A stretch of 56,805 bases of DNA, from IMG/VR virus record IMGVR_UViG_3300011432_000003, positions 1 to 56,805 of that record; one strand, 5' to 3'. This stretch comes from a virus. The translations under genes were made by a program, and so were the position numbers. The notes under the pieces are model-generated. The model did not search any database and was not told the origin of the DNA. It was given only the letters and a program-made list of their open reading frames with translations. Below, one piece after another: positions 8,644 through 34,780 of the stretch (positions within the stretch are counted from its first letter, which is position 1; every line of letters starts with the position of its first letter).

Positions 8644-8792
8644 GTTGGTCGGTGAGCTGGCCGGCGTCTTGTCGGGCTCTTCACAATAAGGGCCGTCTCG
8701 ACTGGCGTAGTTGCGCGTTGCGATGAAGGAACCGAGCCGTAAGTCCCGCGACGGCAGGCCGCCGGCAGCTCAACCTCGAGTGATAAGATCGG
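8644..8792. other. Non-coding junction between late and early regions
   Basis: About 150 bases before the first operator-promoter. I find no tRNA cloverleaf, no convincing terminator stem with a T-run and no reading frame with a ribosome site. Two GCCGGC words are present but not paired into a clear hairpin. It may encode a small RNA or a weak terminator; nothing in the bases settles this. Confidence 0.3.
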
Positions 8793-8823
8793 CCTTGCGC
8801 GATCGCACAAGGCCTTTTAGTTT
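8793..8823 (+). promoter_or_regulatory. Operator-promoter cassette, site 1 (rightward)
   Basis: The palindromic CCTTGCGCGATCGCACAAGG occupies 8793-8812 and overlaps the -35 TTGCGC (8795-8800). After a 17-bp spacer comes the -10 TAGTTT (8818-8823). The ATG of the DnaJ-finger gene is 40 bases further on, after a leader containing CTCTCACTCGAGG and CTCACG. Member of the dispersed family described in the findings. Confidence 0.85.
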
Positions 8824-8862
8824 CCGATCGTACGCTCTCACACTCTCACTCGAGGACTCACG

Positions 8863-9557: not shown

Positions 9558-9626
9558 AGCAGGCGACACCTTAGCGAGCTCGCTCAACCTTCCCGGTGAG
9601 AAGCCGCTCCGGCCGCCGACTATCGG

Positions 9627-9657
9627 CCTTGCGCGATCGCGCAAGGCCGTTTAGTTT
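9627..9657 (+). promoter_or_regulatory. Operator-promoter cassette, site 2 (rightward)
   Basis: The perfect 20-bp palindrome CCTTGCGCGATCGCGCAAGG lies at 9627-9646; -35 TTGCGC at 9629-9634, 17-bp spacer, -10 TAGTTT at 9652-9657. The start codon at 9692 is 35 bases downstream behind the leader ACACTCTCACACACTCGAGG. Confidence 0.88.
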
Positions 9658-9691
9658 CCGGTCACACTCTCACACACTCGAGGTACTCACG

Positions 9692-10384: not shown

Positions 10385-10411
10385 CGGCTCCGGATCCCGA
10401 TCCTCTCGAGG

Positions 10412-10442
10412 CCTTGCGCGATCGCGCAAGGCCTTTTAGTTT
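10412..10442 (+). promoter_or_regulatory. Operator-promoter cassette, site 3 (rightward)
   Basis: Perfect palindrome CCTTGCGCGATCGCGCAAGG at 10412-10431, -35 TTGCGC at 10414-10419, 17-bp spacer, -10 TAGTTT at 10437-10442. The leader is identical to that of site 2, and the ATG at 10477 is 35 bases beyond the -10. It drives the unit that contains the Mom-like gene. Confidence 0.88.
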
Positions 10443-10476
10443 CCGGTCACACTCTCACACACTCGAGGTACTCACG

Positions 10477-10787: not shown

Positions 10788-11588
10788 ATGACGACGATCA
10801 CCGCAGAGAAGAGATGGACGGAGCGCCTCGAGCGATGGGTCACGCCGCGCGACGTCTTCCGGCCTGACGGCTTCGCCGTCGACGTCCTGCGCGATCGGGA
10901 CGCGAAGGCCTTCGTCACGCGCGAGCACTATTCCGGGACGTATCCGGCCGCGCGCTGCGCGATCGGCCTCTTCCTCGAGAAGTCCCTCGTCGGCGTCGCC
11001 GTCTTCTCGGTGCCGGCGAACGCGCGCGTCCTGCCGCACTACTTCGGCGAGGACGTCAACGCCGCGGAGCTCGGGCGCTTCGTGTGCGCGCCGTGCGTCG
11101 GGTACAATGGGGAATCATGGTTTCTCGCGCGCGCCTTCCGCGCGCTGCGGGAAGTGAAGCAGATCGTCGGCGTCCTCTCGTATGCGGATCCGCTCGAGCG
11201 CACGACGGCCGACGGTGAGATCGCGAAGCGGGCGCATTGGGGGACGATCTATCAGGCGAGTAATGCACGGTACGTCGGCCGCGCGGAGCCGCGGACGCTG
11301 CTCGTCACCGCGGACGGCCGAGTGATCTCGCCGCGCGCCTTGTCGAAGATCCGCAATGATGAACGCGGCGCACGGTACGCGGCCGCGCAGCTCGAGGCCT
11401 TCGGAGCGCCGGCCCGTGCCTTCGGTGAAGAGCCGGCGGCGTGGGTAACGCGCGTCTCGAGCGGCTTCCGTAAGATCCGGCATCCGGGGAATCTCGCGTA
11501 CGTTTTCGGCCTCACGCCGGCGATCCGCACGTCGATTGACGTGCAATGGGGCGCCGGGCAACCCTACCCAAAAGCGAAGGCAGCATGA
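10788..11588 (+). CDS. mom: Mom-like DNA adenine hypermodification protein
   Basis: 266 residues. It shows the conserved blocks of the Mom family (GNAT-like fold), which converts adenine in phage DNA to a carbamoylmethyl derivative and blocks host restriction. The blocks are REHYSGTYP (45-53), GLFLEKSLVGVAVFSVPAN (60-78), ELGRF (94-98), NGESWFLARAFRAL (107-120), VLSYADP (129-135) and HWGTIYQASNARYVGR (150-165). Length and motif order fit the family; about 100 extra C-terminal residues may contact DNA. It is expressed from cassette site 3. In Mu, mom is tightly controlled because expression is toxic, so the operator is notable. Confidence 0.8.
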   Translation: MTTITAEKRWTERLERWVTPRDVFRPDGFAVDVLRDRDAKAFVTREHYSGTYPAARCAIGLFLEKSLVGVAVFSVPANARVLPHYFGEDVNAAELGRFVCAPCVGYNGESWFLARAFRALREVKQIVGVLSYADPLERTTADGEIAKRAHWGTIYQASNARYVGRAEPRTLLVTADGRVISPRALSKIRNDERGARYAAAQLEAFGAPARAFGEEPAAWVTRVSSGFRKIRHPGNLAYVFGLTPAIRTSIDVQWGAGQPYPKAKAA

Positions 11589-12021: not shown

Positions 12022-12524
12022 GCGGCGGCCGTGCGTGCGCCTGCGCGAAGGATCGGCGCGATTGGGTCGTGCTCACGCGCGAGGGGAATCATTCAAAATT
12101 CAACGGGCGCCGGTTCCAGAGCTCCGCATACTCGGCGATCCGGTGCCTCACGTGTGCGGCCGTCTGGCGCACGCGCGCGGACTACGTCGCCGGGCTCCGG
12201 GATGCCTCGACCGACGAGCGCCGGCTGCCGGTATCCGATCTCTTCCGCGGAGCATGGACGTGTCCCGTGTGCGGCGCCGAGCGTCGCGGCCGCGGGCAGG
12301 CGTACGCGATCGACGTCGGCCGCGGCGTGACGTATCTCGGCCGCGAGGGAATGATCGTCCTCGAGGCCGGCGACTTCGTTTGCTGGTATCACGAGTCGAT
12401 CGAGCGGGAGATCCGCCGGCTCGAGCTCATCGTCGACGCCGGCGACGCCGCGGATCCTGACGAGCTGCAGCGGGAGCTCGCACGGCTGCGGGCAGGCCTT
12501 GCGCAATCGCACAAGGCCGACTAG
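12018..12524 (+). CDS. Hypothetical protein with CxxC pairs; 3' end lies in an operator
   Basis: 168 residues. A CACAKDRRDW start, a CLTC pair near residues 43-46 and CPVCG near 82-86 suggest zinc binding; the C-terminal 40 residues are a Glu/Leu/Arg helix. The last residues (AGLAQSHKAD) are encoded by the next operator palindrome, and the TAG stop (12522-12524) is also the first half of its -10, so gene end and promoter are interlocked. No family recognised. Confidence 0.6.
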   Translation: MSGGRACACAKDRRDWVVLTREGNHSKFNGRRFQSSAYSAIRCLTCAAVWRTRADYVAGLRDASTDERRLPVSDLFRGAWTCPVCGAERRGRGQAYAIDVGRGVTYLGREGMIVLEAGDFVCWYHESIEREIRRLELIVDAGDAADPDELQRELARLRAGLAQSHKAD

Positions 12525-12527
12525 CTT
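12497..12527 (+). promoter_or_regulatory. Operator-promoter cassette, site 4 (rightward)
   Basis: CCTTGCGCAATCGCACAAGG at 12497-12516; -35 TTGCGC at 12499-12504; 17-bp spacer; -10 TAGCTT at 12522-12527. The downstream leader ACACTCTCACACTGAGG precedes the ATG at 12559, 32 bases past the -10. It overlaps the end of the upstream coding sequence. Confidence 0.85.
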
Positions 12528-12558
12528 CCGGGTACACTCTCACACTGAGGCTCACGTT

Positions 12559-13529: not shown

Positions 13530-13885
13530 GCGCGCTCTTCCGCCGCGGCCTCGAGCGGCTCGCGCTCGTCGAGTCGAAGCACGGCGAGCTCACGGTGATT
13601 TCGTGCGCGCTCTGCGCAACGCAATGGGAGCGCACGAAGGATCTCGGGCCGACGGCGACGCGCAACGCACGGCAACTCGCCGGATGGCACGCACTCGAGC
13701 ACGAGCGCGCCGGCGAGAAGTCTCCGGCGTTCCTCGAGGCCGAGCGCGCGGCGATCGTCGCGGAGCTCGAGCAGGCGCGCACGAATTACGAGGACGTTAT
13801 CCGGGATCCGGAGTCGGCCGACAAGCGGGATCTCGCATGGAGTCGCCTCGAGCGCGCGCAGGCGGCCGCACGCGAGGCCGTATGA
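13526..13885 (+). CDS. Small hypothetical protein with CxxC and helical tail
   Basis: 119 residues from a GTG at 13526 in a GTGA overlap. It has CALCATQW (about residues 26-33), then a HALEHERAG segment, so a CCHH-type zinc site is possible. Residues 70-119 form one long Glu/Arg-rich helix. No family recognised. Confidence 0.6.
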   Translation: MSALFRRGLERLALVESKHGELTVISCALCATQWERTKDLGPTATRNARQLAGWHALEHERAGEKSPAFLEAERAAIVAELEQARTNYEDVIRDPESADKRDLAWSRLERAQAAAREAV

Positions 13886-15135
13886 GCGACGACACGCGGC
13901 CGCGGATCCTCGAGGTATACACCGGCGAGGATCTCGGGCCGGCCGATCCCTCGAGGATCCGCGACGTCCCGATCGACGACGGGTATCTCGGCGACAAACC
14001 GAATCCCGTCTATCGCGGCCTTCCGCACGTGTGGCTCTTCATCGACGAGCACGGCGAGATCCGGCACGTCGGCGGAAAGGGCGCGTCCGAAGTCGACGCC
14101 GACGATAAAGACGCGGTGCACCGGGCGATCTATGAACGCACGCGCCGGCGGAGCCCGGACGGGATCGGCTCGGGCGGCGTCACCTTGCGCGCGGCGACAA
14201 GGGAGCCCATAATGCCGAAGCCGGCCGCGGATTGCTCCGGGCCGGCTTTCGGGGCGGCGCTCTCACACGCCGACTCACGAGAGGACGCTCACGACGCCGC
14301 TCGCTCTCACGAAGGTAATCACTCACGCTCACCGGACAACCGAATGACAACCGCAGCGAAGCCGAAGGCCGACGTCGTCGACGCCGGCAGTATTACGACG
14401 ATCGGGCCGGAGTCATCGCGGCCGGTCCTCACCTTGTACGATCTCTCCGATCGGCTGCTCGCGATCGAGGCCTTTATCGACGAGAACGCCGACGCGATCA
14501 TCGCGGCGAAGGGAGATCTCGACGCGATTCCCGGCCTCGTCGAGCAGCTCGAGCAGCTCGAGGGCGCTTTTTCGGCGAAGGTCGAGCGCGTCGCGCTCTT
14601 CATCGAGAACCGGAGCGCGATCGAGCAGACGCGCCGCGCGCAGGCGCAGCGCTTCGCGCATCTCGCCGACACGGATAAGAACGTCGTCGCGAGCCTGAAG
14701 GCGTACCTCGTGCGGTGCCAGCGACGCGCCGGGCAGATCAAAGTCGAGACGGCCGCGATCATCTCGCGCGTGCAACGCAACTCGCAGCAATCGATCGACC
14801 GGAAGGCGGACGCCGAGCCGCTCGAGATCATCCGCGACTCGGCGAGCTGCGGCTTCCTGAGTCTCCCGGAGATGAGCGACGACGCCGACGAATTCCGGGC
14901 CGCGGTCGTCGCGTGCATCGAGAAGGAAGTCCCGCCGCCGCTCTATTCGCTCAACCGGGAGAAGATCCTCGAGATCTGGCACGCAGCGTACGCGCGATCG
15001 AAGGCGGCACCGAAGCCGGGGAAGCTCTCCGATTACGACGCCGACGTATTCGATCAGGCCGCGGCGAATGGCGATCCCGTCCTGCGCGCGCTCGGCGTTA
15101 CGGTGACGCAAGGCTATCACGTCCGCTTGAAGTAG
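13882..15135 (+). CDS. Early protein whose frame stays open into the Gp157-like gene
   Basis: The ATG at 13882 overlaps the previous stop and begins a domain (MSDDTRPRILEVYTGEDLG) with a strand-turn pattern VWLFIDEHGEIRHVGGKG at about residues 48-65. No stop occurs before 15135, so as written it makes a 417-residue protein with the Gp157-like domain at its C-terminus. Residues about 95-154 are low-complexity and are encoded by a promoter, a hairpin and a leader. This suggests two genes whose separating stop is absent: a true fusion, recent loss of a stop, or a base error. Confidence 0.45.
   Translation: MSDDTRPRILEVYTGEDLGPADPSRIRDVPIDDGYLGDKPNPVYRGLPHVWLFIDEHGEIRHVGGKGASEVDADDKDAVHRAIYERTRRRSPDGIGSGGVTLRAATREPIMPKPAADCSGPAFGAALSHADSREDAHDAARSHEGNHSRSPDNRMTTAAKPKADVVDAGSITTIGPESSRPVLTLYDLSDRLLAIEAFIDENADAIIAAKGDLDAIPGLVEQLEQLEGAFSAKVERVALFIENRSAIEQTRRAQAQRFAHLADTDKNVVASLKAYLVRCQRRAGQIKVETAAIISRVQRNSQQSIDRKADAEPLEIIRDSASCGFLSLPEMSDDADEFRAAVVACIEKEVPPPLYSLNREKILEIWHAAYARSKAAPKPGKLSDYDADVFDQAAANGDPVLRALGVTVTQGYHVRLK
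14183..14213 (+). promoter_or_regulatory. Operator-promoter cassette, site 5, variant (rightward)
   Basis: The arms CCTTGCGC and CAAGG are kept at 14183-14202 although the centre is degenerate. The -35 is TTGCGC (14185-14190), the spacer is 17 bp and the -10 is CATAAT (14208-14213), the closest of the family to the sigma70 consensus. Unlike the others, it is followed by a 130-base leader with a hairpin before the ATG at 14344. Confidence 0.7.
14218..14248 (+). terminator. Hairpin in the leader of the Gp157-like gene (attenuator candidate)
   Basis: AAGCCGGC (14218-14225) pairs with GCCGGCTT (14241-14248), with partial inner pairing; a further CCG/CGG pair can extend the stem across a bulge. 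It lies just downstream of the expected transcription start of site 5 and is followed by TTTCGGGG rather than a full T-run. It could attenuate transcription or end read-through from upstream. Confidence 0.5.
14344..15135 (+). CDS. Siphovirus Gp157-like protein
   Basis: 263 residues from the ATG at 14344. It follows a long leader and starts where the recognisable family begins: LYDLSDRLLAIEAFIDENAD, then LEQLEGAFSAKVERVALFIEN (about 75-95), DTDKNVVASLKAYLVRCQRR and IISRVQRNSQQSIDRK. Gp157-type proteins are long helical early proteins that usually lie next to single-strand annealing proteins and are thought to help phage recombination or replication. The next gene is a RecT/Bet-like annealing protein, as expected. 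See the 13882 entry for the open upstream frame. Confidence 0.7.
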   Translation: MTTAAKPKADVVDAGSITTIGPESSRPVLTLYDLSDRLLAIEAFIDENADAIIAAKGDLDAIPGLVEQLEQLEGAFSAKVERVALFIENRSAIEQTRRAQAQRFAHLADTDKNVVASLKAYLVRCQRRAGQIKVETAAIISRVQRNSQQSIDRKADAEPLEIIRDSASCGFLSLPEMSDDADEFRAAVVACIEKEVPPPLYSLNREKILEIWHAAYARSKAAPKPGKLSDYDADVFDQAAANGDPVLRALGVTVTQGYHVRLK

Positions 15136-15139
15136 GACG

Positions 15140-16768
15140 ATGGGAGAGCACGCCGAGCAGCAGAGTGACGACGGCCTCGAGGCGCTCGCCGCGCATGCCG
15201 CCGGCGAGTGTGAGGGACCGTGTCCATATTGTGACGAGGAAGATCGGGCCGAACGGGCAGCGGAACGCAAAACTAGACACGCTCCAAGGGGGCGCAGCAT
15301 GACACAAGAGACGCACACGACGACGGCCGTCGAGACGCCGCTCGATCCCGCACTCGAGATCTCGAGCGTGCCGAATGAGTCGGCGATGCCGGTCCCGGTG
15401 AAGCCGCCGGCGCCGAACGGCGATGCACTCCCGCCGGAGCTCCCGCCGCACGAAGCGGCCGAGCAGGCGGATCTCAACCGATGGACGCCGGCGCAGATCC
15501 AACTCCTGAAGGACACCGTTTGCCGCGGCGCGACGGATGACGAGCTGCGGCTCTTTCTCTACGTGTGCCAGCGGCGCCGCTTGGATCCGTTCACGAAGCA
15601 GATACACGCGATCAAGCGCCGGGTAAAAGAGGGCTCACGCTGGCGCGACTCGATCACGTTTCAAACCGGGATCGATGCCTTCCGGCTCGTCGCCGATCGG
15701 ACCGGGAAGTATCTCGGGCAAGCGCCGTTTGAGTGGTGCGGTGAGGATGGCGTATGGCGTGACGTGTGGCTTTCGAAGGACGCACCGAAGGCCGCGCGCT
15801 GCACGATCTATCGCGAGGGATTCCGGGAGCCGATCCGGGCCGTCGCGCTCTTCGACGAGTACGTGCAGACGGTCGACGAGTACAAGCGACAAGAGCAGGC
15901 GCCGGGCGAATTCGCCGACGTCAAGACGGGCCGCGAGGTTCCTAACGCGATGTGGACGCAGCGGCCGGCCGGGCAGCTCGCGAAGTGCGCGGAAGCGCTC
16001 GGCTTTCGAATGGCCTTCCCGGAAGAGCTCTCCGGGCTCTACACAAATGACGAGATGGGACAAGCGGATAATCCGTCGAAAGGCGCGCAGCGCGTCGGCG
16101 TCGATAGCGGGCAAGGCGATAGCATGAATGGGCGCGCCGGCGGCGAGACGCCGAGCTGCCCGAAGTGCGGCGGCGAGATGTGGGACAACCGCGAGAAAAA
16201 GCGCAGTCAAAAGGGATGGGCGACGGCGCCGGACTTCCGGTGCAAGAATAAGAACGGCTGCACCGGCGAGATCGCCGACATAGCAAACCCTCAACGGCCG
16301 GCGGAGCAGACAGCGAACGGGCCGAGCTCCGCCGGCTCGGCCGCTCCGCGATCCGACGCGCCGACAAGCGGCAGCGCGAGCAGCTCGAGCTCGGGCCGCG
16401 CGGCGTCGACGCCGGACACGAGGCCGACGTCGGAGAAGTCTCCCGGCTCTTCGACGAATTCCGCGAGCAGCGGCTCCGGATCCTCGAGCGCGACGGATAC
16501 GATCCCGACGTCGACGATCACGCGTGACGCGGTGATCGATTGGGGGCTCGGGAAGTTTTCCGTCGTGCAGGGGAAGCGGATCAAAGATCTCCGATGGGAG
16601 CAGCTCGACTACTTCATCCGCAATCGGCCGAGCGTGCTCCCGGCGGGATGGCTCGAGGCGATCGCGAAAGAGAAGGCGCTGCGCGAAGAGACGGGCGGCG
16701 ATGAGCGCGACGAGGACGACGGCGGCAGCATGCAAGGCGGCGATCCGTACACCGGCGCCGGCGCATGA
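15140..16768 (+). CDS. bet: RecT/Bet-family single-strand annealing protein with C-terminal zinc ribbon
   Basis: 542 residues from the ATG at 15140; a second in-frame ATG at 15299 has a stronger AGGGGG ribosome site and would give 489. Family core about residues 110-305: RGATDDELRLFLYVCQRRRL, DPFTKQIHAIKR, FQTGIDAFRLVADRTGKYLG, GFREPIRAVALFDEYVQ and LAKCAEALGFRMAFPEEL. After it come a zinc ribbon (CPKCGGEMWDN ... FRCKNKNGC), a Ser/Thr-rich linker of about 60 residues and a short C-terminal domain. Such proteins anneal single strands during recombination and end repair. No exonuclease partner is adjacent; a HerA-like ATPase follows instead. Confidence 0.85.
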   Translation: MGEHAEQQSDDGLEALAAHAAGECEGPCPYCDEEDRAERAAERKTRHAPRGRSMTQETHTTTAVETPLDPALEISSVPNESAMPVPVKPPAPNGDALPPELPPHEAAEQADLNRWTPAQIQLLKDTVCRGATDDELRLFLYVCQRRRLDPFTKQIHAIKRRVKEGSRWRDSITFQTGIDAFRLVADRTGKYLGQAPFEWCGEDGVWRDVWLSKDAPKAARCTIYREGFREPIRAVALFDEYVQTVDEYKRQEQAPGEFADVKTGREVPNAMWTQRPAGQLAKCAEALGFRMAFPEELSGLYTNDEMGQADNPSKGAQRVGVDSGQGDSMNGRAGGETPSCPKCGGEMWDNREKKRSQKGWATAPDFRCKNKNGCTGEIADIANPQRPAEQTANGPSSAGSAAPRSDAPTSGSASSSSSGRAASTPDTRPTSEKSPGSSTNSASSGSGSSSATDTIPTSTITRDAVIDWGLGKFSVVQGKRIKDLRWEQLDYFIRNRPSVLPAGWLEAIAKEKALREETGGDERDEDDGGSMQGGDPYTGAGA

Positions 16769-18690
16769 CGAAGACGCTCAAGATCTCGGCCGACTTCGCG
16801 CTGCCGTACGATGCGCAGACGCGCACCTTCGTTGTCTACGGCGGCAAGGGCAAAGGGAAGAGCAATCTCGGCGCCGTTATGTGCGAGGAATTCGCCGACG
16901 CCGGCCTGAAGTTCTGCGTCATCGATCCATTAGACGTCTTTTGGGGACTCCGGCACGGGAAGACGAAAGACGAGCAGGGGATCGACGTCGTCCTGCTCGG
17001 CGGCACGCACGGCGACTTAGCGATCGAGCCCGGCGCCGGCGCGACGGCGGCCGATTTCGTCGTCGACGAGACGGCGAGCGTGATAATCGTCATGCGCCGC
17101 GGAAACGGGGAGATGTGGACGAATGGCGAGCGGATCCGCTTTATGCGCGACTTCGCGACGCGCGTCTTTCAGCGGCAGGGGGAAGCGCGGCAGCCGTTGC
17201 ACTTGGTCGTCGACGAGGCCGGGCGCTTCGTGCCGCAGATGCCGGCAAAGAATGATCTCGCGATCGCCGAGTGCATCGGGGCGATCGAGCAGCTCGTCGA
17301 GTGGGGCCGGAATTTCGGGATCGGCGTCACGCTCATTACGCAGCGCTCCGCGCGGATGAATAAGAGCGTTAGTGAGCTGGCCGAGTGCATGGTCGCTTTC
17401 CAGACGGCCGGGCCGCGCTCGATCGGCGCCGTCGTCGACTGGTTCGGTGAGCACGTGCCGAAGGAACGGCAGCACGAGCTCGTCGGGATCCTGCGGAAGC
17501 TGCCCGTCGGCCGGGCGCTCATCGTGTCGCCGGAGTTTCTCGACTTCGAAGGCGAGGCGCAGATCCGGCACCGGCGCACCTTCGACTCGAGCGCGACACC
17601 GAAGGCCGGCGCGAAGCCGGCGAAGCCGGGCGGCCGGCGCGCGATCGATCTCGAGGCGTATCGCGTGAAGCTCGGCGAGACGATCGCGAAGGCCGAAGCG
17701 CAGGATCCGCGGGCGCTCATGAAGCGGATCCGGGATCTCGAGCAGCAACTCACGAAGCGGCTCGAGACGGCGAAGGCCGTCGCGGATCCGAAGGCGATCG
17801 AGCGAGCGGTCGCGGCGCTCGAGAAGACGCACGCGATCGCGCTCGGCCAGCTCCGGAAGCGCGTCGACGACGTGATCCGGAAGGCGACGCACGGCTTCGC
17901 GAGCCTGCAGGCGGCCGTCGAGAAGGCGAACGAAGCGGCGAAGCTCTTCGGCGAGGCCTTCCGGCATCAGCTCGAGAGCGTCCTCGAGGATCCGATATGG
18001 ACCGGGACGCCACGGCCGAGCGTGGACGATCACGCCGGCGACGGGTACGCCGCGCATGCGAGGATCGCGCAGGCCGTGCCATTCGCGCGGAAGGTAGCGC
18101 AGGCCTCACCGCTCACCGATGCGGCCGCACGCGCCGTCGTGGCTCGAGCGCGTCCCGATTCCGCGGTCGCAGAGAACGGGAACGGCAAAGGCCTGCCGAT
18201 CGGGATCCGGCACGTCGCGATCTTGAACGCCTTACTCGAGCTCGAGCAGCTCGGCGTCGGCGAGCCGTCCCGGATACAGCTCGGCGCCTTCGCCGGGCGC
18301 AACCTGACGGGCGGCACGGGCGGGATGGACGTCGCGGCGCTCGTCGAGGCCGGCCTCGCGCGGATCCCGTCGGCCGGGAAGGTCGCGATCACACGGGCCG
18401 GCGAGGCGCAGGCGTCACGGATCGAGGATCCGCTCACCCTCGAGGACGTGCACGCACGGGCTCGGGCACGCGTCCCGGAGCGCCTGCGGCCGATCCTCGA
18501 GCGGCTGCTCGAGATCTGGCCGGAGTCGGTTACACGGACGCAGCTCGGCGAGGTCGTCGGCCGGAACCTCACCGGCGGGACCGGCGGGATGGACGTCGCG
18601 GCCTTAGTGGCGCTCGGCTTCGCCGAGATCCCGCGGAGCGGGCACGTCGCCGCCGGCGGGATCCTCTTCCCGGAAAGTCTGCGGTCGTGA
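16765..18690 (+). CDS. HerA/FtsK-like P-loop ATPase with duplicated C-terminal module
   Basis: 641 residues; ATG overlaps the upstream stop. Walker A GGKGKGKSN (26-34), Walker B LHLVVDEAG (145-153) and a sensor-like LITQRSARMNKSV (190-202) mark a hexameric DNA translocase of the HerA/FtsK class. Coiled coil spans about 295-410. Near residues 508-545 and 593-627 the same module occurs twice (GRNLTGGTGGMDVAALV in both), probably winged-helix DNA-binding units. HerA ATPases normally feed ends to a nuclease (NurA or others). Here it follows an annealing protein, so it may process ends for recombination. A packaging role is unlikely because a terminase is present. Confidence 0.75.
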   Translation: MTKTLKISADFALPYDAQTRTFVVYGGKGKGKSNLGAVMCEEFADAGLKFCVIDPLDVFWGLRHGKTKDEQGIDVVLLGGTHGDLAIEPGAGATAADFVVDETASVIIVMRRGNGEMWTNGERIRFMRDFATRVFQRQGEARQPLHLVVDEAGRFVPQMPAKNDLAIAECIGAIEQLVEWGRNFGIGVTLITQRSARMNKSVSELAECMVAFQTAGPRSIGAVVDWFGEHVPKERQHELVGILRKLPVGRALIVSPEFLDFEGEAQIRHRRTFDSSATPKAGAKPAKPGGRRAIDLEAYRVKLGETIAKAEAQDPRALMKRIRDLEQQLTKRLETAKAVADPKAIERAVAALEKTHAIALGQLRKRVDDVIRKATHGFASLQAAVEKANEAAKLFGEAFRHQLESVLEDPIWTGTPRPSVDDHAGDGYAAHARIAQAVPFARKVAQASPLTDAAARAVVARARPDSAVAENGNGKGLPIGIRHVAILNALLELEQLGVGEPSRIQLGAFAGRNLTGGTGGMDVAALVEAGLARIPSAGKVAITRAGEAQASRIEDPLTLEDVHARARARVPERLRPILERLLEIWPESVTRTQLGEVVGRNLTGGTGGMDVAALVALGFAEIPRSGHVAAGGILFPESLRS

Positions 18691-18692
18691 GG

Positions 18693-18722
18693 CCTTGCGC
18701 AACCGCACAAGGCCTTTAGATT
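18693..18722 (+). promoter_or_regulatory. Operator-promoter cassette, site 6 (rightward)
   Basis: CCTTGCGCAACCGCACAAGG at 18693-18712, beginning three bases after the ATPase stop codon; -35 TTGCGC at 18695-18700; spacer 16 bp (one shorter than the others); -10 TAGATT at 18717-18722. Leader ACACTCTCACGCTCGAGG, ATG at 18755, 33 bases downstream. Confidence 0.85.
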
Positions 18723-18754
18723 CCGGGTACACTCTCACGCTCGAGGTTCTCACG

Positions 18755-19345
18755 ATGACGCAGCCGACGACCGAAAAAGCTCCCGCGATCCATCCCTTCG
18801 AAGAGTCAGGGCTCGGCGTCGGGCCGTTCCGCTGCGTCGGCGTCGAGACGCGCGTCGGACCGATCACGCTCGCCGACGGGACGCAAGTCGGCTCGCCGGG
18901 GCAGCCGATGGGCTCGTGCGCGCATTGCGGGACCGGGATTAAGGATTGCTATCTCATCCGCAGCGCAGACGGGAAGCGCTTTGTCGTCGGCTCGTCGTGC
19001 GTCCTCAAGACGAATCGGAAGAGCCTCGACACGCGCGGAATGTCGGAGCTCGAGCGCGACGTCCTGCGCGAGAAGCGGGCACTCGATCGCGAGAAGGCCG
19101 CGGCGAAGCGCGACGCGAAGTACCTCGCCGATCTGGCGAAGTTCAAGCCGTCATGGGACGCCGCGCGCGCCGCGCTCGAGGCCGATCCGACGCTCTGCGC
19201 CGGCGAGCCGCATCCGCAGATCTCGGGCCTGACGCTCCGGAATAAATACGAGTGGATGCTGCAGCATGCCGGCTTCGCCGGTCGGAACGCGACGGCGGCG
19301 TGCATCCTGCGCGCGGCCGCGGCGAAGGCCGGAGTCGCCGAGTGA
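18755..19345 (+). CDS. Zinc-ribbon early protein with helical domain
   Basis: 196 residues. A CAHCGTGIKDCYLIRS block (about 55-70) followed by GKRFVVGSSCVLKT (73-86) forms a four-Cys ribbon that I have seen in conserved phage proteins of unknown role. A Lys/Arg/Glu coiled segment (97-125) and a CAGEPHPQISGLTLRNKYEW segment follow. First gene of the unit driven by site 6, which includes the DNA-binding proteins further on. Confidence 0.65.
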   Translation: MTQPTTEKAPAIHPFEESGLGVGPFRCVGVETRVGPITLADGTQVGSPGQPMGSCAHCGTGIKDCYLIRSADGKRFVVGSSCVLKTNRKSLDTRGMSELERDVLREKRALDREKAAAKRDAKYLADLAKFKPSWDAARAALEADPTLCAGEPHPQISGLTLRNKYEWMLQHAGFAGRNATAACILRAAAAKAGVAE

Positions 19346-20037: not shown

Positions 20038-20546
20038 GCCGGCATCCGCACGCCGGCGAGAAACGGAAGCCGACGCTCGAGCGGCAACTCGAGGGGACGG
20101 GGCTCTTCGGCGGATTGCCAGAGCCGGGCAGCGACGCCGAGCTGCGGGAAGCCGCGCGCGCTCTCGCGCTCCCGATCGAGGACGTGCGCGTACTCCGGGA
20201 CGGCGTCGACATAGCACCGGGGCCGCAGCGGCTCGGCCGCCGCGCGATCGCGCAGGACGTCGCGCTCGGGAAGGCGCTCATCGTCAAAGGGACGAAGATC
20301 GAGCAGATCCTTGCGTTTCTACGCAAGGACTATAAACTCGGATGCACGCGGGAGCAGATCGCGAAAGCGCTCGGCTTCAAGCTGCAAACCGTTTGCGGGC
20401 GCGTAAACGATCTGCTCTATCGGAAAGCTGCAGGCCTGCCGGCGCCGCTCGTGTATGAGCGCGGCGAAGATTCGACCGGGGCCGCTTATGTGTACGCATT
20501 CACGCCGGAAGCTCTCTCACTCTCTCGACTCACGGACACAAAATGA
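20034..20546 (+). CDS. Winged-helix DNA-binding protein containing an internal operator
   Basis: 170 residues. Residues about 100-132 (CTREQIAKALGFKLQTVCGR) read as a helix-turn-helix with a following winged segment. The N-terminal 60 residues are acidic and flexible. The gene body contains a copy of the 20-bp palindrome (20309-20328) inside the codons for ILAFLRKDYK, just before the helix-turn-helix. It is a candidate regulator of the cassette family, possibly self-regulated, but sequence alone does not show which of the three regulators binds the operator. Confidence 0.6.
   Translation: MSRHPHAGEKRKPTLERQLEGTGLFGGLPEPGSDAELREAARALALPIEDVRVLRDGVDIAPGPQRLGRRAIAQDVALGKALIVKGTKIEQILAFLRKDYKLGCTREQIAKALGFKLQTVCGRVNDLLYRKAAGLPAPLVYERGEDSTGAAYVYAFTPEALSLSRLTDTK
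20309..20328. promoter_or_regulatory. Intragenic copy of the operator palindrome
   Basis: CCTTGCGTTTCTACGCAAGG has the same 20-bp length and the same CCTTG/CAAGG arms as the promoter-linked sites but a different centre. TTGCGT with a 16-bp spacer is followed by TAAACT, so a weak promoter toward the XRE-like gene at 20543 is possible. It lies within coding sequence and may also act as an autoregulatory roadblock. Confidence 0.6.
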
Positions 20547-20950
20547 AGACACAGATCCTCGCCGCGCTCGTCACCGATTCGCCAGAGGCGGCGACACTCG
20601 GCCTCGAGGCCGCCGAGCTCTCGATCGAGCAACTCCTGCAGGCGGAGCCGATCGCCGATCGCATGCTCGCGGAAGTCCGGACGGCGATCGGGACGAAGCT
20701 CCGCGATGAGCGCGCCGCGCTCGGGCTCTCGCTCGAGGAAGTGCGCGACAAGTCGGGCCGCTCGATTGACTCCGGCGGCCTCTCGCGGCTCGAGCGCGGG
20801 CAGTCATGGAGCGGCGAGCTTGCCGGCACGGCGCGCAAGTTCTACGCGCGCGAGCGCGCCAAGCAGGCGAAGGCCGACGCACGGAAGCAGGCGAAGGCAG
20901 CGGCATCGTATGCCGTCGTCACCGAAGGACGCCGCAGAGCCGGCGCGTGA
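20543..20950 (+). CDS. XRE-like helix-turn-helix protein, repressor candidate
   Basis: 135 residues; ATG at 20543 overlaps the previous stop. Residues about 48-90 (GTKLRDERAALGLSLEEVRD, then SIDSGGLSRLERGQSW) match a Cro/CI-type five-helix DNA-binding domain, though the loop before the recognition helix is longer than usual. The N-terminus is acidic, and the C-terminus is a basic Lys/Ala helix. No peptidase domain. Cro/CI proteins bind palindromes as dimers, so this is a reasonable reader of the 20-bp operator. The upstream CTCTCACTCTCTCGACTCAC resembles the shared leader. Confidence 0.6.
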   Translation: MKTQILAALVTDSPEAATLGLEAAELSIEQLLQAEPIADRMLAEVRTAIGTKLRDERAALGLSLEEVRDKSGRSIDSGGLSRLERGQSWSGELAGTARKFYARERAKQAKADARKQAKAAASYAVVTEGRRRAGA

Positions 20951-21366
20951 GATCGTCGCGGAAGCAGCTCGATCCGGAGCTCGAGGCGCTCAAGGCGTAC
21001 GGGAAGCACGTCCGCGCGTGGATCGATAAAGACGAGCCGCGGCGGCTCGAGCTGCTCAAGGCGCAGTGCGAGCGCTTCGGGATCGCGCTCCGGCAGCTCT
21101 CGCCGCACTCGTGGCGCCTCACGCTCGGCGAGACGTGGTGCGACTACTTCCCGCGGCGCCGGACCGTCACACACGGGAACGAACGCGTCGGCGACGGGCT
21201 CGCGGCCGCGCTCGAGTATCTCGGGATCCCGAAGCGCGACGCCGTCCGGCTCGAGCCGCGGCGACGTGGACAACGTGTGTGGACAACCGACGTGGACAAT
21301 ACGGCCGGAGATTCCACACGGGATCCCACATTGCCCAATGTGGAACGGAAAGCGCCGCCGGCGTGA
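20947..21366 (+). CDS. Hypothetical protein whose 3' end holds DnaA-box-like iterons
   Basis: 139 residues from a GTG at 20947. Helical N-terminal half (LDPELEALKAYGKHVRAWID), then a basic beta-type segment (SWRLTLGETWCDYFPRRRTV). The C-terminal 45 residues are encoded by the iteron and hairpin region described as a candidate origin. It could be an origin-binding protein, as initiators are often encoded at their own origin, but no known initiator motif is present. Confidence 0.55.
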   Translation: MRSSRKQLDPELEALKAYGKHVRAWIDKDEPRRLELLKAQCERFGIALRQLSPHSWRLTLGETWCDYFPRRRTVTHGNERVGDGLAAALEYLGIPKRDAVRLEPRRRGQRVWTTDVDNTAGDSTRDPTLPNVERKAPPA

Positions 21367-21445
21367 CGGTTAGCTCGGTTCTGCACGTTTCAACACGTCT
21401 CTACTGTTACTGATTCTGTAAGTCTTTAGTCCTACTATCAGAACC
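21265..21445. other. Candidate replication origin (iterons, hairpin, AT-rich stretch)
   Basis: Three copies of GTGGACAA start at 21266, 21279 and 21292, exactly 13 bp apart. The middle one, preceded by T, is a perfect TGTGGACAA (TTGTCCACA on the other strand), the DnaA-box form of GC-rich bacteria. Then come TTCCACA (21312), a perfect 7-bp-arm inverted repeat CCACATTGCCCAATGTGG (21326-21343), and from about 21395 an unusually AT-rich stretch (ACTGTTACTGATTCTGTAAG) in this GC-rich genome. This layout is typical of a theta origin. Promoter elements for 21462 may overlap it. Confidence 0.55.
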
Positions 21446-21461
21446 CGCTCACGAGGGGAGA

Positions 21462-21887
21462 ATGCCAGCAACGAAAGCAAAGCCGAAGGCTCGCGCGGCT
21501 CGCGCGAAGCGCTTCGCAGAGTACATGCTCGAGAATTTCCGGAACGCATTCGCCGAGCTGCGCGCGATCTCCGGGCAGATCTCGCAACTCGGGCACATGG
21601 TCGAAGGGCTCAAGGCACGGATCCCGGACACGCTCGCGAAGACGAATCGATTCGGCGAGCCGATTCGTGTCACGTCGTGGAAGATCGCGCGGCCGCTTAC
21701 GGTGCCGATGTACAATCCCGACGCCGATCGGGATCGGCAGCTCACGGAGCCGGCCGAGCTGGCCGTCGTGCTCTTTGAGCTCGTCGCACGAGCGGACACA
21801 CTCGGGGCGACGAATCGAATCGCGAGCGTCACCTTCGACGAGCGCGAGGGGAAGCTCGAGCTCTACGCGCGGGAGCGCCTCACGTGA
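21462..21887 (+). CDS. Hypothetical early protein after the candidate origin
   Basis: 141 residues with a strong GAGGGGAG ribosome site just upstream. Basic N-terminus (ATKAKPKARAARAKRFAEYM), a helical middle and a C-terminal segment of strands (ASVTFDEREGKLELYARERL). No family recognised. It is the first gene after the AT-rich stretch, so it probably has its own promoter there. Confidence 0.6.
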   Translation: MPATKAKPKARAARAKRFAEYMLENFRNAFAELRAISGQISQLGHMVEGLKARIPDTLAKTNRFGEPIRVTSWKIARPLTVPMYNPDADRDRQLTEPAELAVVLFELVARADTLGATNRIASVTFDEREGKLELYARERLT

Positions 21888-22066
21888 GCGCCGAAACATT
21901 CGCGCGCGGCGCGTACGCCGTCGCCGCGATCGCCTTCGTGCTCGCGGTCGTCGTCTTCATGCTGCAGTCGCATCTCCGGTATCGCGCGGCCCGGCGCCGG
22001 CACGAAGAGCAGTATCGGCGCGTCCTCGCGTCGATCCGGAGCACGCTCGAGAACCTCGAGCGGTGA
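21884..22066 (+). CDS. Small single-transmembrane protein
   Basis: 60 residues from a GTG at 21884. Residues 8-27 are hydrophobic (GAYAVAAIAFVLAVVVFMLQ), followed by a charged Arg/Glu helix. Overlaps both neighbours by start/stop fusion. Function unknown. Confidence 0.5.
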   Translation: MSAETFARGAYAVAAIAFVLAVVVFMLQSHLRYRAARRRHEEQYRRVLASIRSTLENLER

Positions 22067-22356
22067 CGACGCTCTGCGCGACGTGTCCGCTCAATCGGGA
22101 TCCGACGCAACCGCTCTCCGGGCGGCAGGCGCAGCTCTTGCGCTTTCTCGGCCAGTATCACCGGCGCTCGGGCATCATGCCGGCGTATTCCGAGATCGCC
22201 GAAGCGCTCGGCGTCCGCTCGCTCGCGAGTGTATCGGAGCTCGTCGGGACGCTCGAGGGGAAGGGATGGATCTCCCGCCGGCATAACGTCGCGCGCTCGA
22301 TCACGCTCACCGCGGCCGCGGTCGAATGGGTCGCACAGTACGGAGACGCGGCATGA
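22063..22356 (+). CDS. LexA-type DNA-binding domain protein without peptidase
   Basis: 97 residues from a GTG at 22063. Residues about 18-82 match the LexA N-terminal winged helix: LSGRQAQLLRFLGQYHRRSG, IMPAYSEIAEALGVRS, SVSELVGTLEGKGWI, then SRRHNVARSITL. There is no S24 self-cleavage domain, so it could bind SOS-type or phage operators constitutively. A CATC pair at residues 5-8 precedes the domain. Possible roles: competing with host LexA or regulating phage promoters. Confidence 0.75.
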   Translation: MTTLCATCPLNRDPTQPLSGRQAQLLRFLGQYHRRSGIMPAYSEIAEALGVRSLASVSELVGTLEGKGWISRRHNVARSITLTAAAVEWVAQYGDAA

Positions 22357-22649: not shown

Positions 22650-22927
22650 TCCCGCCGGAGCTCGCGCATCTCAACCCGGCGAACGTCCGGGAATTCCTGC
22701 CGCTCGTCGAGCAGTACAAGCGCCGCGGATACACGGCCGCTGCCTGCGCGAATGCGATCGTCAGGCCTTGGTCGCAGCAGGCGACGCGAGACGCGAAGGC
22801 CGGGCTCCGGCCGGCAATCCTCATCGAGCAGGATCTCGCGAAGGCCTGCGCGATGCTCGGCGACATTATTCACACGGTGTACCGGACACGTGTCCTCTTT
22901 ACCAATCACGGGAGCGTACTCTCATGA
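22646..22927 (+). CDS. Hypothetical early protein
   Basis: 93 residues, helical, with LNPANVREFLPLVEQYKRRG at the start. No motif recognised. ATGA overlaps with both neighbours. Confidence 0.55.
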   Translation: MIPPELAHLNPANVREFLPLVEQYKRRGYTAAACANAIVRPWSQQATRDAKAGLRPAILIEQDLAKACAMLGDIIHTVYRTRVLFTNHGSVLS

Positions 22928-23151
22928 CTTTGCTAACCTCACCGCAGCTCGGGCCGATCCTCTTCGTGATCCTCGTCTTCGTCGGGATCGGCGTCTTCAC
23001 CCTCGCACGTTCGCTCATCCTCGCCGGCGCCTGCGTTTACGAATATCGCCAGCACAAGCGCCGCGGCGGCCGGCTCACGTTCCGCGGCTTCCTCGAGGCC
23101 TTCGGCGTGCGGAACATGCTCGAGCGGCACGAGTGGATCCGGCCGCAATGA
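22924..23151 (+). CDS. Small membrane protein
   Basis: 75 residues; residues 8-40 contain one long or two short hydrophobic helices (LGPILFVILVFVGIGVFTLA), and the rest is basic. Coupled to the next membrane protein. Function unknown. Confidence 0.5.
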   Translation: MTLLTSPQLGPILFVILVFVGIGVFTLARSLILAGACVYEYRQHKRRGGRLTFRGFLEAFGVRNMLERHEWIRPQ

Positions 23152-32142: not shown

Positions 32143-32469
32143 CTAATGGCCGCGACGCCGGCGAGGATACGCCGCGCGGAAGGCGCGCCATGCCTCGCGA
32201 CGGGCCGCTTCCGTCCACACGAGCGCCGACGCCTTGAATCCGCACGCCTTCGCATCGGCGAGGATCTGCATCTGCCCGGCCAGCAGGCCGCCGACTTGCT
32301 TCCCGTCGGCACCGTGATACGTCACGGACCAATCGCCGATCATGCCGGACGTCGCGGCCATATTGCCCGGATGGAAGTCGATCACGGCCTTAACGGCCGG
32401 CGCCGAGTGGAAGCGCTTCGGATCGACGGGAGCGGATGCCGCGAGGCGGCGCGAGAGCTGCGTCTTCAT
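32143..32469 (-). CDS. Hypothetical leftward early protein
   Basis: 108 residues (MKTQLSRRLAASAPVDPKRF), alpha/beta with a GMIGDWSVTYHGADGKQVGG segment and a basic end (YPRRRRGH). The start is preceded by a CACTCTCACTCTCGAGG ... CTCACG leader like the other early genes, but here that leader is also coding sequence of the gene upstream, and no palindrome precedes it. Last gene of the leftward unit. Confidence 0.6.
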   Translation of the reverse strand: MKTQLSRRLAASAPVDPKRFHSAPAVKAVIDFHPGNMAATSGMIGDWSVTYHGADGKQVGGLLAGQMQILADAKACGFKASALVWTEAARREAWRAFRAAYPRRRRGH

Positions 32470-32702
32470 CGTGAGGATCCTCGAGAGTGAGAGTGACGAC
32501 GGGGAATGAGGCCGAGATATTCGGCCGCTGCAGTGAGGGACCGGATCCGACGCGGGAATTCCGTCGGATCATTGCGATAGATCGTGCCGGTATCGGTGAT
32601 CTCGACGAAGTCATCGCCGCACGCGTAGATCGTCGAGAACGGCCGGCTCTCGATGGAGAGCCGGGCCGTCTTCGCGAGCTCGTCGAATTGCGCGCGGCGC
32701 AT
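32466..32702 (-). CDS. Hypothetical leftward early protein
   Basis: 78 residues, with a compact alpha/beta core (STIYACGDDFVEITDTGTIY). Its C-terminus RRHSHSRGSSR is encoded by the leader-like sequence of the following gene, suggesting that an old cassette leader was captured as coding sequence. It starts three bases after the stop of 32706-33050. Confidence 0.55.
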   Translation of the reverse strand: MRRAQFDELAKTARLSIESRPFSTIYACGDDFVEITDTGTIYRNDPTEFPRRIRSLTAAAEYLGLIPRRHSHSRGSSR

Positions 32703-32705
32703 CGG

Positions 32706-33050
32706 TTAGCGCGCCTCGCGAATGAACCGGACGGCCTTCGCCGTCATCGTGACGATCGCGCGCTCGCTCGAGTCGCGGATCCCGGACCAATCGCCGCCGG
32801 CCGTCCCGATCCCGCGGCCGAACCCGTCGGCGAGCGCTTCGAAGTCACAACCGGCGGACCATGCCGCTTGAATCACGTACAGATCGGCACGGGCCGAGAA
32901 CGCGAATCCGTTCCGCATCCCGCGGAATCGGCTCGTCGGCTCGCCGGCTTCGATGCACGCGAGCGCATGCGTGAGGACAACCGTCACGTCACCGGCGACG
33001 TACGGCAGGGAGTCGAGATCGGAGAGGATCGAAGCGGCGGCGGACGTCAT
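32706..33050 (-). CDS. Hypothetical leftward early protein
   Basis: 114 residues from the ATG at 33050, which directly follows the conserved leader; a start ten codons upstream is in frame but lies in the leader. Contains ALACIEAGEPTSRFRGMRNG and a helical C-terminus. First gene of the unit driven by site 7. No family recognised. Confidence 0.6.
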   Translation of the reverse strand: MTSAAASILSDLDSLPYVAGDVTVVLTHALACIEAGEPTSRFRGMRNGFAFSARADLYVIQAAWSAGCDFEALADGFGRGIGTAGGDWSGIRDSSERAIVTMTAKAVRFIREAR

Positions 33051-33080
33051 CGTGAGTACCTCGAGTGAGAGTGTATGCAC

Positions 33081-33111
33081 ATTCTAAACGTCCTTGTGCG
33101 ATTGCACAAGG
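33081..33111 (-). promoter_or_regulatory. Operator-promoter cassette, site 7 (leftward)
   Basis: Palindrome CCTTGTGCGATTGCACAAGG at 33092-33111. On the minus strand the -35 is TTGTGC (33104-33109) and, after 17 bp, the -10 is TAGAAT (33081-33086). Leader ACACTCTCACTCGAGG, ATG at 33050, 31 bases past the -10. Confidence 0.88.
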
Positions 33112-33114
33112 GGC

Positions 33115-33315
33115 CTAGAGGCGCCAATCGATGACGCAGGCGTTTACGGCGTCCGCCGCGGCCGTGCGCTCGCACCACTTCCGCACGATCCGCTCGGCGT
33201 GCGCGCGCGTCGGGGCCGTCACGATCGTACCGTCGGGCAGCATGACGAGCAGCTCGCCGGCCTCGCCGCGCTCGACGACGGCCTTCCCTTGCACGTTCAC
33301 GCGGGGCGCCGTCAT
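33115..33315 (-). CDS. Small leftward early protein
   Basis: 66 residues from the ATG at 33315, which overlaps the stop of the preceding gene; upstream in-frame ATGs would run through that gene. Beta-rich middle (AGELLVMLPDGTIVTAPTRA), then a helix. No family recognised. Confidence 0.55.
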   Translation of the reverse strand: MTAPRVNVQGKAVVERGEAGELLVMLPDGTIVTAPTRAHAERIVRKWCERTAAADAVNACVIDWRL

Positions 33316-33536
33316 CGCGACGTATCCGGATCGAAGGCGATCCCGCCGATTTCGAAGCTCACGCGGTACGTCTCGGTCGTGCCGCGGCGCGTCACGCGCG
33401 CGATCCAAAGGCTGCGGGAAGGATCGTAATCGACGCGGACGCTTCGCGCCTGCAGGACACGGCGGCCGGCGCGCTCGATGCGTGAAACGTACGTCTCGCT
33501 CGGCGTCATGCCTTTGCTATACCGTGAGTAACGCAT
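33312..33536 (-). CDS. Small leftward early protein
   Basis: 74 residues from the ATG at 33536, placed right after the conserved leader; an alternative ATG lies at 33509. Strand-rich basic protein (RVLQARSVRVDYDPSRSLWI). Driven by site 8. No family recognised. Confidence 0.55.
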   Translation of the reverse strand: MRYSRYSKGMTPSETYVSRIERAGRRVLQARSVRVDYDPSRSLWIARVTRRGTTETYRVSFEIGGIAFDPDTSR

Positions 33537-33567
33537 ACCGTAACCTCGAGCGTGAGAGTGTATGCAC

Positions 33568-33598
33568 AAACTAAGAGGCCTTGTGCAATCGCACAAGG
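33568..33598 (-). promoter_or_regulatory. Operator-promoter cassette, site 8 (leftward)
   Basis: Palindrome CCTTGTGCAATCGCACAAGG at 33579-33598. Minus strand -35 TTGTGC (33591-33596), 17-bp spacer, -10 TAGTTT (33568-33573). Leader ACACTCTCACGCTCGAGG, ATG at 33536, 32 bases past the -10. Confidence 0.88.
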
Positions 33599-33636
33599 CC
33601 TCGAGGCAACAAAGATCCGGGAACCTCGCCGGCGTC

Positions 33637-33897
33637 TTACCTCTGCTCGGCGGCGATCATCGCCTGCGCGACGTCGTGCCAATTGCGGACCGGGACGCCG
33701 GCGAAGCCGCGGATACATACCGTGCGCGGCTCGGCGAGGAATGGCACGAGCTCGATCGGCTCGTCAGGGATCACCGATGGCTCGATCGTGGCGACGATCG
33801 AGGGGCCGGATTCCGGCGTGACGATGAGCGCAACGTTTATGTCACCGAAGCGGGCGATCGTGTCCGCGAGCCGAGCCTGCAGTTCCGATGCTAACAT
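33637..33897 (-). CDS. Small leftward early protein
   Basis: 86 residues from the ATG at 33897 (MLASELQARLADTIARFGDI). An N-terminal helix, a strand-rich middle (NVALIVTPESGPSIVATIEP) and a short helical end. One-gene unit under site 9. No family recognised. Confidence 0.6.
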   Translation of the reverse strand: MLASELQARLADTIARFGDINVALIVTPESGPSIVATIEPSVIPDEPIELVPFLAEPRTVCIRGFAGVPVRNWHDVAQAMIAAEQR

Positions 33898-33928
33898 CGT
33901 GAGTAACCTCGAGTGAGAGTGTGCACAC

Positions 33929-33959
33929 ATACTAAGCGGCCTTGCGCAGTCGCACAAGG
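33929..33959 (-). promoter_or_regulatory. Operator-promoter cassette, site 9 (leftward)
   Basis: Palindrome CCTTGCGCAGTCGCACAAGG at 33940-33959. Minus strand -35 TTGTGC (33952-33957), 17-bp spacer, -10 TAGTAT (33929-33934). Leader ACACTCTCACTCGAGG, ATG at 33897, 32 bases past the -10. Confidence 0.88.
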
Positions 33960-33966
33960 CCTCGCG

Positions 33967-34212
33967 CTATTTCCAGCGCTCGAGCGGGTACTTCCGCCGA
34001 AGCTGCCGGAAGGCCGCACGCAGCGGCGCGTCGAGCTCGAGCCGATCGTCGAGCGTCATCTTCACGCCGTACGTTTCCTCGTACCAAAGTTGCATCTCGC
34101 CGCGGCCGACACGCGTCGGCGGCAGGATCTCGTCGATCTGCGTCGCCGGCGTGCGCGCTTCGAAGCGGCGCACAAACTCGGCGACGTACGCGGTGATCTG
34201 CTCGGCCGTCAT
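33967..34212 (-). CDS. Small leftward early protein
   Basis: 81 residues from the ATG at 34212, overlapping the stop of the preceding gene. Helical (ITAYVAEFVRRFEARTPATQ), with LWYEETYGVKMTLDDRLELD near the middle and a basic end. No family recognised. Confidence 0.6.
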   Translation of the reverse strand: MTAEQITAYVAEFVRRFEARTPATQIDEILPPTRVGRGEMQLWYEETYGVKMTLDDRLELDAPLRAAFRQLRRKYPLERWK

Positions 34213-34454
34213 CGCTCGATCGCTCCGCTGCCGATCGCGCCGACACCGGCCGGCGTGCCGCTCGCCTGCCGCGCTTCCTCGACCCATTGCTCGACCGTGA
34301 AGGCGCCGAGCTGCGCGACGTACACGGCCGTCCGCGGCCAGCGTCCGACGTCGCCGGTAAAATACCAATAGTCCCGGCCGTGTACGATCTCGACACCGAC
34401 GAAGCCGGCACGGGCAAGCGCCGCATTGACGAGAGAGCGAGTGACGCGAGCCAT
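34209..34454 (-). CDS. Small leftward early protein
   Basis: 81 residues from the ATG at 34454 behind the conserved leader (MARVTRSLVNAALARAGFVG). The core HGRDYWYFTGDVGRWPRTAV with the following AFTVEQWVEEA is a compact alpha/beta fold typical of small phage early proteins. First gene of the leftward block, driven by site 10. Confidence 0.6.
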   Translation of the reverse strand: MARVTRSLVNAALARAGFVGVEIVHGRDYWYFTGDVGRWPRTAVYVAQLGAFTVEQWVEEARQASGTPAGVGAIGSGAIER

Positions 34455-34480
34455 CGTGAGAACCTCGAGCGTGAGAGTGT

Positions 34481-34780
34481 ATGGAGAAGCTAACCGTCCT
34501 TGCGCGATCGCACAAGGGGCCGCGGGAACGCCGGCGCGAGCTCCATTTTCAGCGGGCATTTTGCCGGAGCGTCCTCGAGGCAATGGGCCGGGCCGCCGTC
34601 GCCGGCGATCAGGCCGCGCGCGACTTCCTGACGGATTGCGCCGTGCTCGAGCAGCTCGAGGGCACCGCGACACGGCCGGCCGGGCGCATCGTCGCCGGGA
34701 TGGATCCGGACGCCGTCGAGTATCATCTCGAGCACGTCGACGTCCGCCGGCGGACTGGCCGAAAACGCCGCGGACGCTAA
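34481..34780 (+). CDS. Possible first gene of the late region
   Basis: 99 residues if started at the ATG at 34481, which lies inside the leftward promoter; 65 residues from the ATG at 34583. FQRAFCRSVLEAMGRAAVAG and DFLTDCAVLEQLEGTA are helical, and the C-terminus is very basic (RRRTGRKRRGR). Codon pattern looks like its neighbours. No family recognised and the start is unsure. Confidence 0.4.
   Translation: MEKLTVLARSHKGPRERRRELHFQRAFCRSVLEAMGRAAVAGDQAARDFLTDCAVLEQLEGTATRPAGRIVAGMDPDAVEYHLEHVDVRRRTGRKRRGR
34487..34517 (-). promoter_or_regulatory. Operator-promoter cassette, site 10 (leftward)
   Basis: Palindrome CCTTGCGCGATCGCACAAGG at 34498-34517. Minus strand -35 TTGTGC (34510-34515), 17-bp spacer, -10 TAGCTT (34487-34492). 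Leader ACACTCTCACGCTCGAGG, ATG at 34454, 33 bases past the -10. It marks the divergence between leftward early and rightward late genes. Confidence 0.88.

Follow-up and report, generated by a model that had tools for sequence, protein, structure and literature searches.

A candidate replication origin beside the least stable DNA of a 56.8-kb phage genome

How does a tailed phage with no recognised initiator begin to copy its DNA? The question is raised by a short segment near 21.3 kb of a 56,805-nt virus genome (the window, i.e., the whole stretch that was analysed), where a replication origin with 13-bp-spaced, DnaA-box-like iterons had been proposed from the letters alone. The virus record is complete, with a 123-bp direct terminal repeat at 1-123 and 56683-56805, from which the unique sequence is put at ~56.68 kb, circular or terminally redundant. 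The same phage was recovered by a terminase search from two other samples (L012 and L013) at >99.9% identity, in contigs spanning ~30.2-44.4 kb only. A DNA similarity search against annotated phages returned nothing or chance matches only, no relatives of gene 37, gene 30, gene 38 or the RecT protein were found in viral contigs, and searches for tRNAs and RNA families gave no matches. The features of the segment and its surroundings are as follows.

13882-19345, plus strand: upstream module encoding a Gp157-like protein, RecT, a HerA-like ATPase and gene 31, which is without assigned function (profile matches)
20543-20950, plus strand: gene 36, a small protein with a weak XRE-type helix-turn-helix (HTH) match
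20947-21366, plus strand: gene 37, no family match, folded core to about residue 96
21262-21461, no strand: whole candidate control/origin region (low codon score, disordered tail, 95-bp gap)
21266-21273, plus strand: repeat copy 1, GTGGACAA, complement TTGTCCACG
21278-21286, plus strand: repeat copy 2, TGTGGACAA, which is TTGTCCACA on the opposite strand; its GTGGACAA core is at 21279-21286
21292-21299, plus strand: repeat copy 3, GTGGACAA, complement TTGTCCACG
21312-21318 and 21339-21345, no strand: inverted repeat TTCCACA / TGTGGAA (sequence match)
21326-21343, no strand: perfect inverted repeat CCACATTG-CC-CAATGTGG (sequence match)
~21364-21460, no strand: candidate unwinding element and/or gene 38 promoter, the most AT-rich and least stable segment of the genome
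21377-21383 and 21439-21445, no strand: inverted repeat GGTTCTG / CAGAACC, flanking the AT-rich core on both sides
21462-21887, plus strand: gene 38, the first gene past the region, without assigned function (ORF call)
22063-22356, plus strand: gene 40, a LexA-type DNA-binding domain without the protease half

The 13-bp array and the DNA around it

Copies of GTGGACAA begin at 21266, 21279 and 21292, the exact 13-bp period that had been claimed, and the middle copy is indeed a perfect TGTGGACAA/TTGTCCACA. The outer two copies read CGTGGACAA, and the part that is invariant across all three is GTGGACAA, not the full 9-mer. The word has no further copy on either strand of the whole 56.8-kb genome; in dinucleotide shuffles it occurs 0.43 times on average, and at least three copies anywhere are reached in 3 of 100 shuffles. 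Third-order Markov simulations predict ~0.1 equal-period triple arrays of any 8-mer per genome once periods divisible by 3 are set aside, and the GTGGACAA array is the sole such off-codon-register array in the window; given that expectation, the array by itself is suggestive, not overwhelming. For iterons, 13 bp is not a standard length, those of theta plasmids and lambda-type phages being ~17-22 bp.

Formally, the array lies inside the open reading frame of gene 37, at its 3' end, starting at about residue 107. By codon score the final 34 codons rank last among the 3' ends of 59 genes, and a single-sequence structure model of the protein (of low overall confidence, as is that of gene 31) shows a disordered tail from residue 97, so that the tail over the array looks non-functional. 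Given this codon score and the predicted disorder, 21262-21461 behaves as one 200-bp non-coding block. Such a location, here a 3' end that looks less like coding DNA than that of any other of the 59 genes, followed by the 95-bp gap after gene 37, is what is expected of an origin.

Both the TTCCACA/TGTGGAA words and the inverted repeat at 21326-21343 are present as described, and the local AT-rich stretch is more striking than had been claimed: the DNA beside the array ranks first genome-wide in AT content at 60, 80 and 100 bp and joint first at 40 bp. By nearest-neighbour energy, the least stable 50-, 75- and 100-bp segments of the genome lie beside the array (z 4.2 to 4.7) and the least stable 150-bp segment begins inside it, at 21294 (z 3.6), all of them falling within 21294-21487 and adjoining or overlapping the repeats. 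An easily melted element thus adjoins the array, with the genome-wide instability maximum at 21369-21443 and in the neighbouring segments. Non-coding DNA makes up 5.8% of the genome and is spread over ~25 gaps, which puts the chance that the array and the instability maximum share one gap at ~1/25; the position beside the least stable DNA raises the array above the merely suggestive. The single-strand fold of the region is ordinary (z -0.86). Another unstable stretch, at 22862-22936, holds the window's only perfect TTATTCACA (TTWTNCACA), at 22866.

DnaA boxes, the host and the same word elsewhere

The complement of the middle copy is identical to TTGTCCACA, the high-affinity DnaA box tabulated for Mycobacterium tuberculosis and Streptomyces coelicolor (PMC4285127), although this actinobacterial box may not be the consensus of the host. 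The Streptomyces oriC box consensus given in the pWTY27 paper, [T/C][T/C][G/A]TCCAC[A/C] (PMC3583192), excludes the final G of the outer copies, leaving one good box and two doubtful ones. Scored against an actinobacterial consensus that is perhaps not the host's, the tally is one exact TTGTCCACA, two TTGTCCACG and the weaker inverted TTCCACA words. A high G+C content, RecT matches mainly to Gordonia and Mycobacterium phages and weak ClgR/BldD-type matches of the gene 36 HTH hint at a host among the Actinomycetota.

The region resembles a Mycobacterium/Streptomyces-type oriC in having one exact and two 8-of-9 boxes as a direct repeat in a non-coding block beside the least stable DNA. It differs in its length (200 bp vs ~950 bp for the Streptomyces oriC), in its three boxes against 17 or more and in the absence of dnaA/dnaN neighbours, and direct 13-bp phasing is not an established trait of these origins. 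A survey of actinobacterial genomes turned up few spaced TTGTCCAC pairs, and their spacings varied; a general oriC rule of 13 bp therefore does not hold in that group. In an Actinokineospora genome (L008, G004), GTTGTGGACAAC-like words form well over 100 pairs, mostly with 19-bp spacing and across many contigs, as a dispersed element.

Among the matches listed, off-codon-register triple GTGGACAA arrays occur in 60 of 118 viral contigs vs 5 of 120 for the reversed word, proportions in a sample in which related contigs are tallied separately; this difference argues that the arrays are real non-coding elements in phages. Some immediately adjoin a phage gene for a primase-helicase or a polymerase/primase (L047, L040, L067); others lie beside terminase genes (L094, L053, L104) or an integrase (L048, L082), and the one in L056 has an HTH/excisionase gene on one side and a repressor-integrase pair on the other. 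The word thus recurs in phage control regions, a recurrence that does not by itself mark an origin. Exact 13-bp triple arrays were found in no other viral contig in the scan and at nine bacterial loci, several of them actinobacterial; from flanks read as raw sequence none of the nine is established as oriC, and one (L005) lies just upstream of an ordinary-looking, housekeeping-like gene.

Arrays with other periods are also seen. In L047 (9613-9640) and L125 (6176-6213), a GTGGACAA array with a 10-bp period directly follows a phage gene's stop codon, the gene in L047 encoding a primase-helicase, and head-to-tail 9-bp TGTGGACAA arrays occupy non-coding viral DNA in L053 (4264-4289, close to terminase genes), L105 (3526-3551), L128 (6836-6861) and others.

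Replication genes, GC skew and a recurrent promoter-like module

Of ~40 scanned proteins, which take in the products of most of the larger early genes, none matched a polymerase, primase, DnaB/DnaC, O-like or Rep family; the PHROGs part of the scan stops short of the tail genes and numerous small ORFs. The phage had been said to encode no DNA polymerase, and this holds as far as the ~40 scanned proteins go. Searches of Pfam, PHROGs and NCBIfam gave no Rep/O/DnaD-like match for the neighbouring genes. The upstream annealing protein is of the RecT/Bet type, a RecU-like resolvase is encoded downstream of the region, as is the LexA-type DNA-binding domain, and the terminase genes are 13.5 kb away. 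A Mom-like DNA modification protein is encoded at 10788-11588.

A GC-skew minimum, the proposed check on an origin at this site, did not appear there: after detrending, no extremum of the cumulative curve reaches significance (p ~0.9), and the lowest point falls at 15.7 kb, not 21.3 kb. Cumulative skew simply rises along the genome. With nearly every gene on the same strand the test has little power, and an origin need not strictly show an extremum. Skew at third codon positions is nominally significant (p 0.02), with its lowest point near 30.0 kb and not at 21.3 kb.

Elsewhere in the genome, a palindrome, CCTTGYGC-N4-GCRCAAGG, overlaps a promoter-like pair, TTGYGC-16/17-TAG, in nine intergenic copies, five on the plus and four on the minus strand.

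8791-8862, 9625-9691, 10410-10476, 12495-12558 and 18691-18754, plus strand: module copies (palindrome and promoter-like pair)
33055-33111, 33537-33600, 33898-33961 and 34455-34517, minus strand: module copies (palindrome and promoter-like pair)

The conserved leader of the module, ACACTCTCAC..CTCGAGG..CTCACG, ends 40-48 bp downstream at a called start codon in eight of the nine copies, and the set looks like the promoter-operator regulon of one phage regulator. Four copies serve the cassette at 32143-34454, the genome's only clear minus-strand gene cassette. No copy lies in 21262-21461, so that an ordinary early promoter at 21.3 kb becomes less likely, while a separately regulated one would still fit.

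An origin weighed against its rivals

We propose that the 200-bp region 21262-21461 is the replication origin of the phage. A protein would bind the three 13-bp-phased TTGTCCAC(A/G) sites, and probably the inverted TTCCACA/TGTGGAA sites too, and would then melt the adjacent AT-rich, least stable DNA (~21364-21460), onto which the host helicase, primase and polymerase would be loaded. Among possible binders host DnaA ranks first, since the core matches the actinobacterial DnaA box and the scanned proteins gave no phage initiator. An origin served by DnaA or another host factor is a tentative reading, the best single explanation rather than an established one, with a promoter/operator close behind; that DnaA itself is the initiator is rather doubtful. 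What speaks for the original prediction of an origin is the layout (direct repeats, inverted repeats, least stable DNA, non-coding block), the adjoining recombination genes and the failure to find a phage initiator. Against it, the match to a DnaA box is good for only one of the three copies, the other two ending in G rather than A, and GC skew is silent; GTGGACAA arrays also adjoin terminase, integrase and repressor genes in other phages, and a promoter, too, would look like an AT-rich stretch immediately ahead of a gene. Two known systems counsel caution: in lambda, DnaA bound near ori has a stimulating effect on transcription (PMC3985674), and in phage P1, RepL replication in a reporter assay survived the mutation of two DnaA sites by an AT-rich element (PMC9948254).

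It is quite possible, if somewhat less so, that the region is the promoter/operator of the gene 38-40 operon, with the AT-rich stretch as promoter, the 13-bp repeats and palindromes as candidate operators and, as candidate binder, a phage regulator (the gene 36 HTH or the LexA-type product of gene 40) or host DnaA in the role of transcription factor, for which its stimulation of transcription near the lambda ori is a precedent (PMC3985674). The AT-rich stretch directly precedes gene 38, which has a good ribosome-binding site; the GGTTCTG/CAGAACC inverted repeat encloses the AT-rich core; and regulator-like genes stand on both sides, as in phage tandem-operator control regions, where repeats and palindromes precede an operon with regulator genes near. 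The L056 array, in its setting of HTH/excisionase and repressor-integrase genes, is consistent with the same role. However, the region differs from such control regions in lacking this phage's own promoter/palindrome module (TTGYGC-17-TAG, with the palindrome over the -35), no sigma-70-type match was found in it, and it is less stable than the intergenic stretches in which the recurrent promoters lie.

An origin could also serve a phage-encoded initiator that sequence comparison does not recognise (e.g., the product of gene 31, 36 or 37), with GTGGACAA as its own iteron and the DnaA-box likeness a coincidence. Initiators of the lambda type are encoded beside their own origin, small genes without assigned function lie directly upstream of the array, and it is GTGGACAA, rather than the whole 9-mer, that is invariant; yet no Rep/O-like family was matched among the scanned proteins, and this possibility appears quite improbable. 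Iteron origins of theta plasmids and lambda-type phages (lambda O, P1 oriR/oriL) likewise have tandem repeats by an AT-rich stretch with recombination or replication genes near, but the array here has an 8-bp core and a 13-bp period, and, unlike those origins, no recognisable Rep or O gene. Slightly less probable still is a packaging or other recognition site (for the terminase small subunit or a ParB-like protein), a DnaA titration site or a chance feature. Arrays beside terminase genes in L094, L053 and L104 would suit packaging, and the simulated ~0.1 off-register triple arrays per genome leave some room for chance; the terminase genes of this phage are nevertheless 13.5 kb away, and coincidence with the genome's least stable DNA, when only 5.8% is non-coding, would go unexplained.

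Everything observed here is within known kinds. A broader proposal, that a tailed phage without its own initiator, helicase and polymerase replicates solely via host DnaA at a 200-bp oriC mimic of 13-bp-phased TTGTCCAC sites, and that the primase-adjacent arrays of other phages work likewise, is unlikely. If the proposed origin is real, a phage group without cultured members would gain a concrete origin of 200 bp, and this tailed phage would be an example of dependence on host DnaA instead of an initiator of its own; the site would also point to the likely host group, namely hosts whose DnaA prefers TTGTCCACA.
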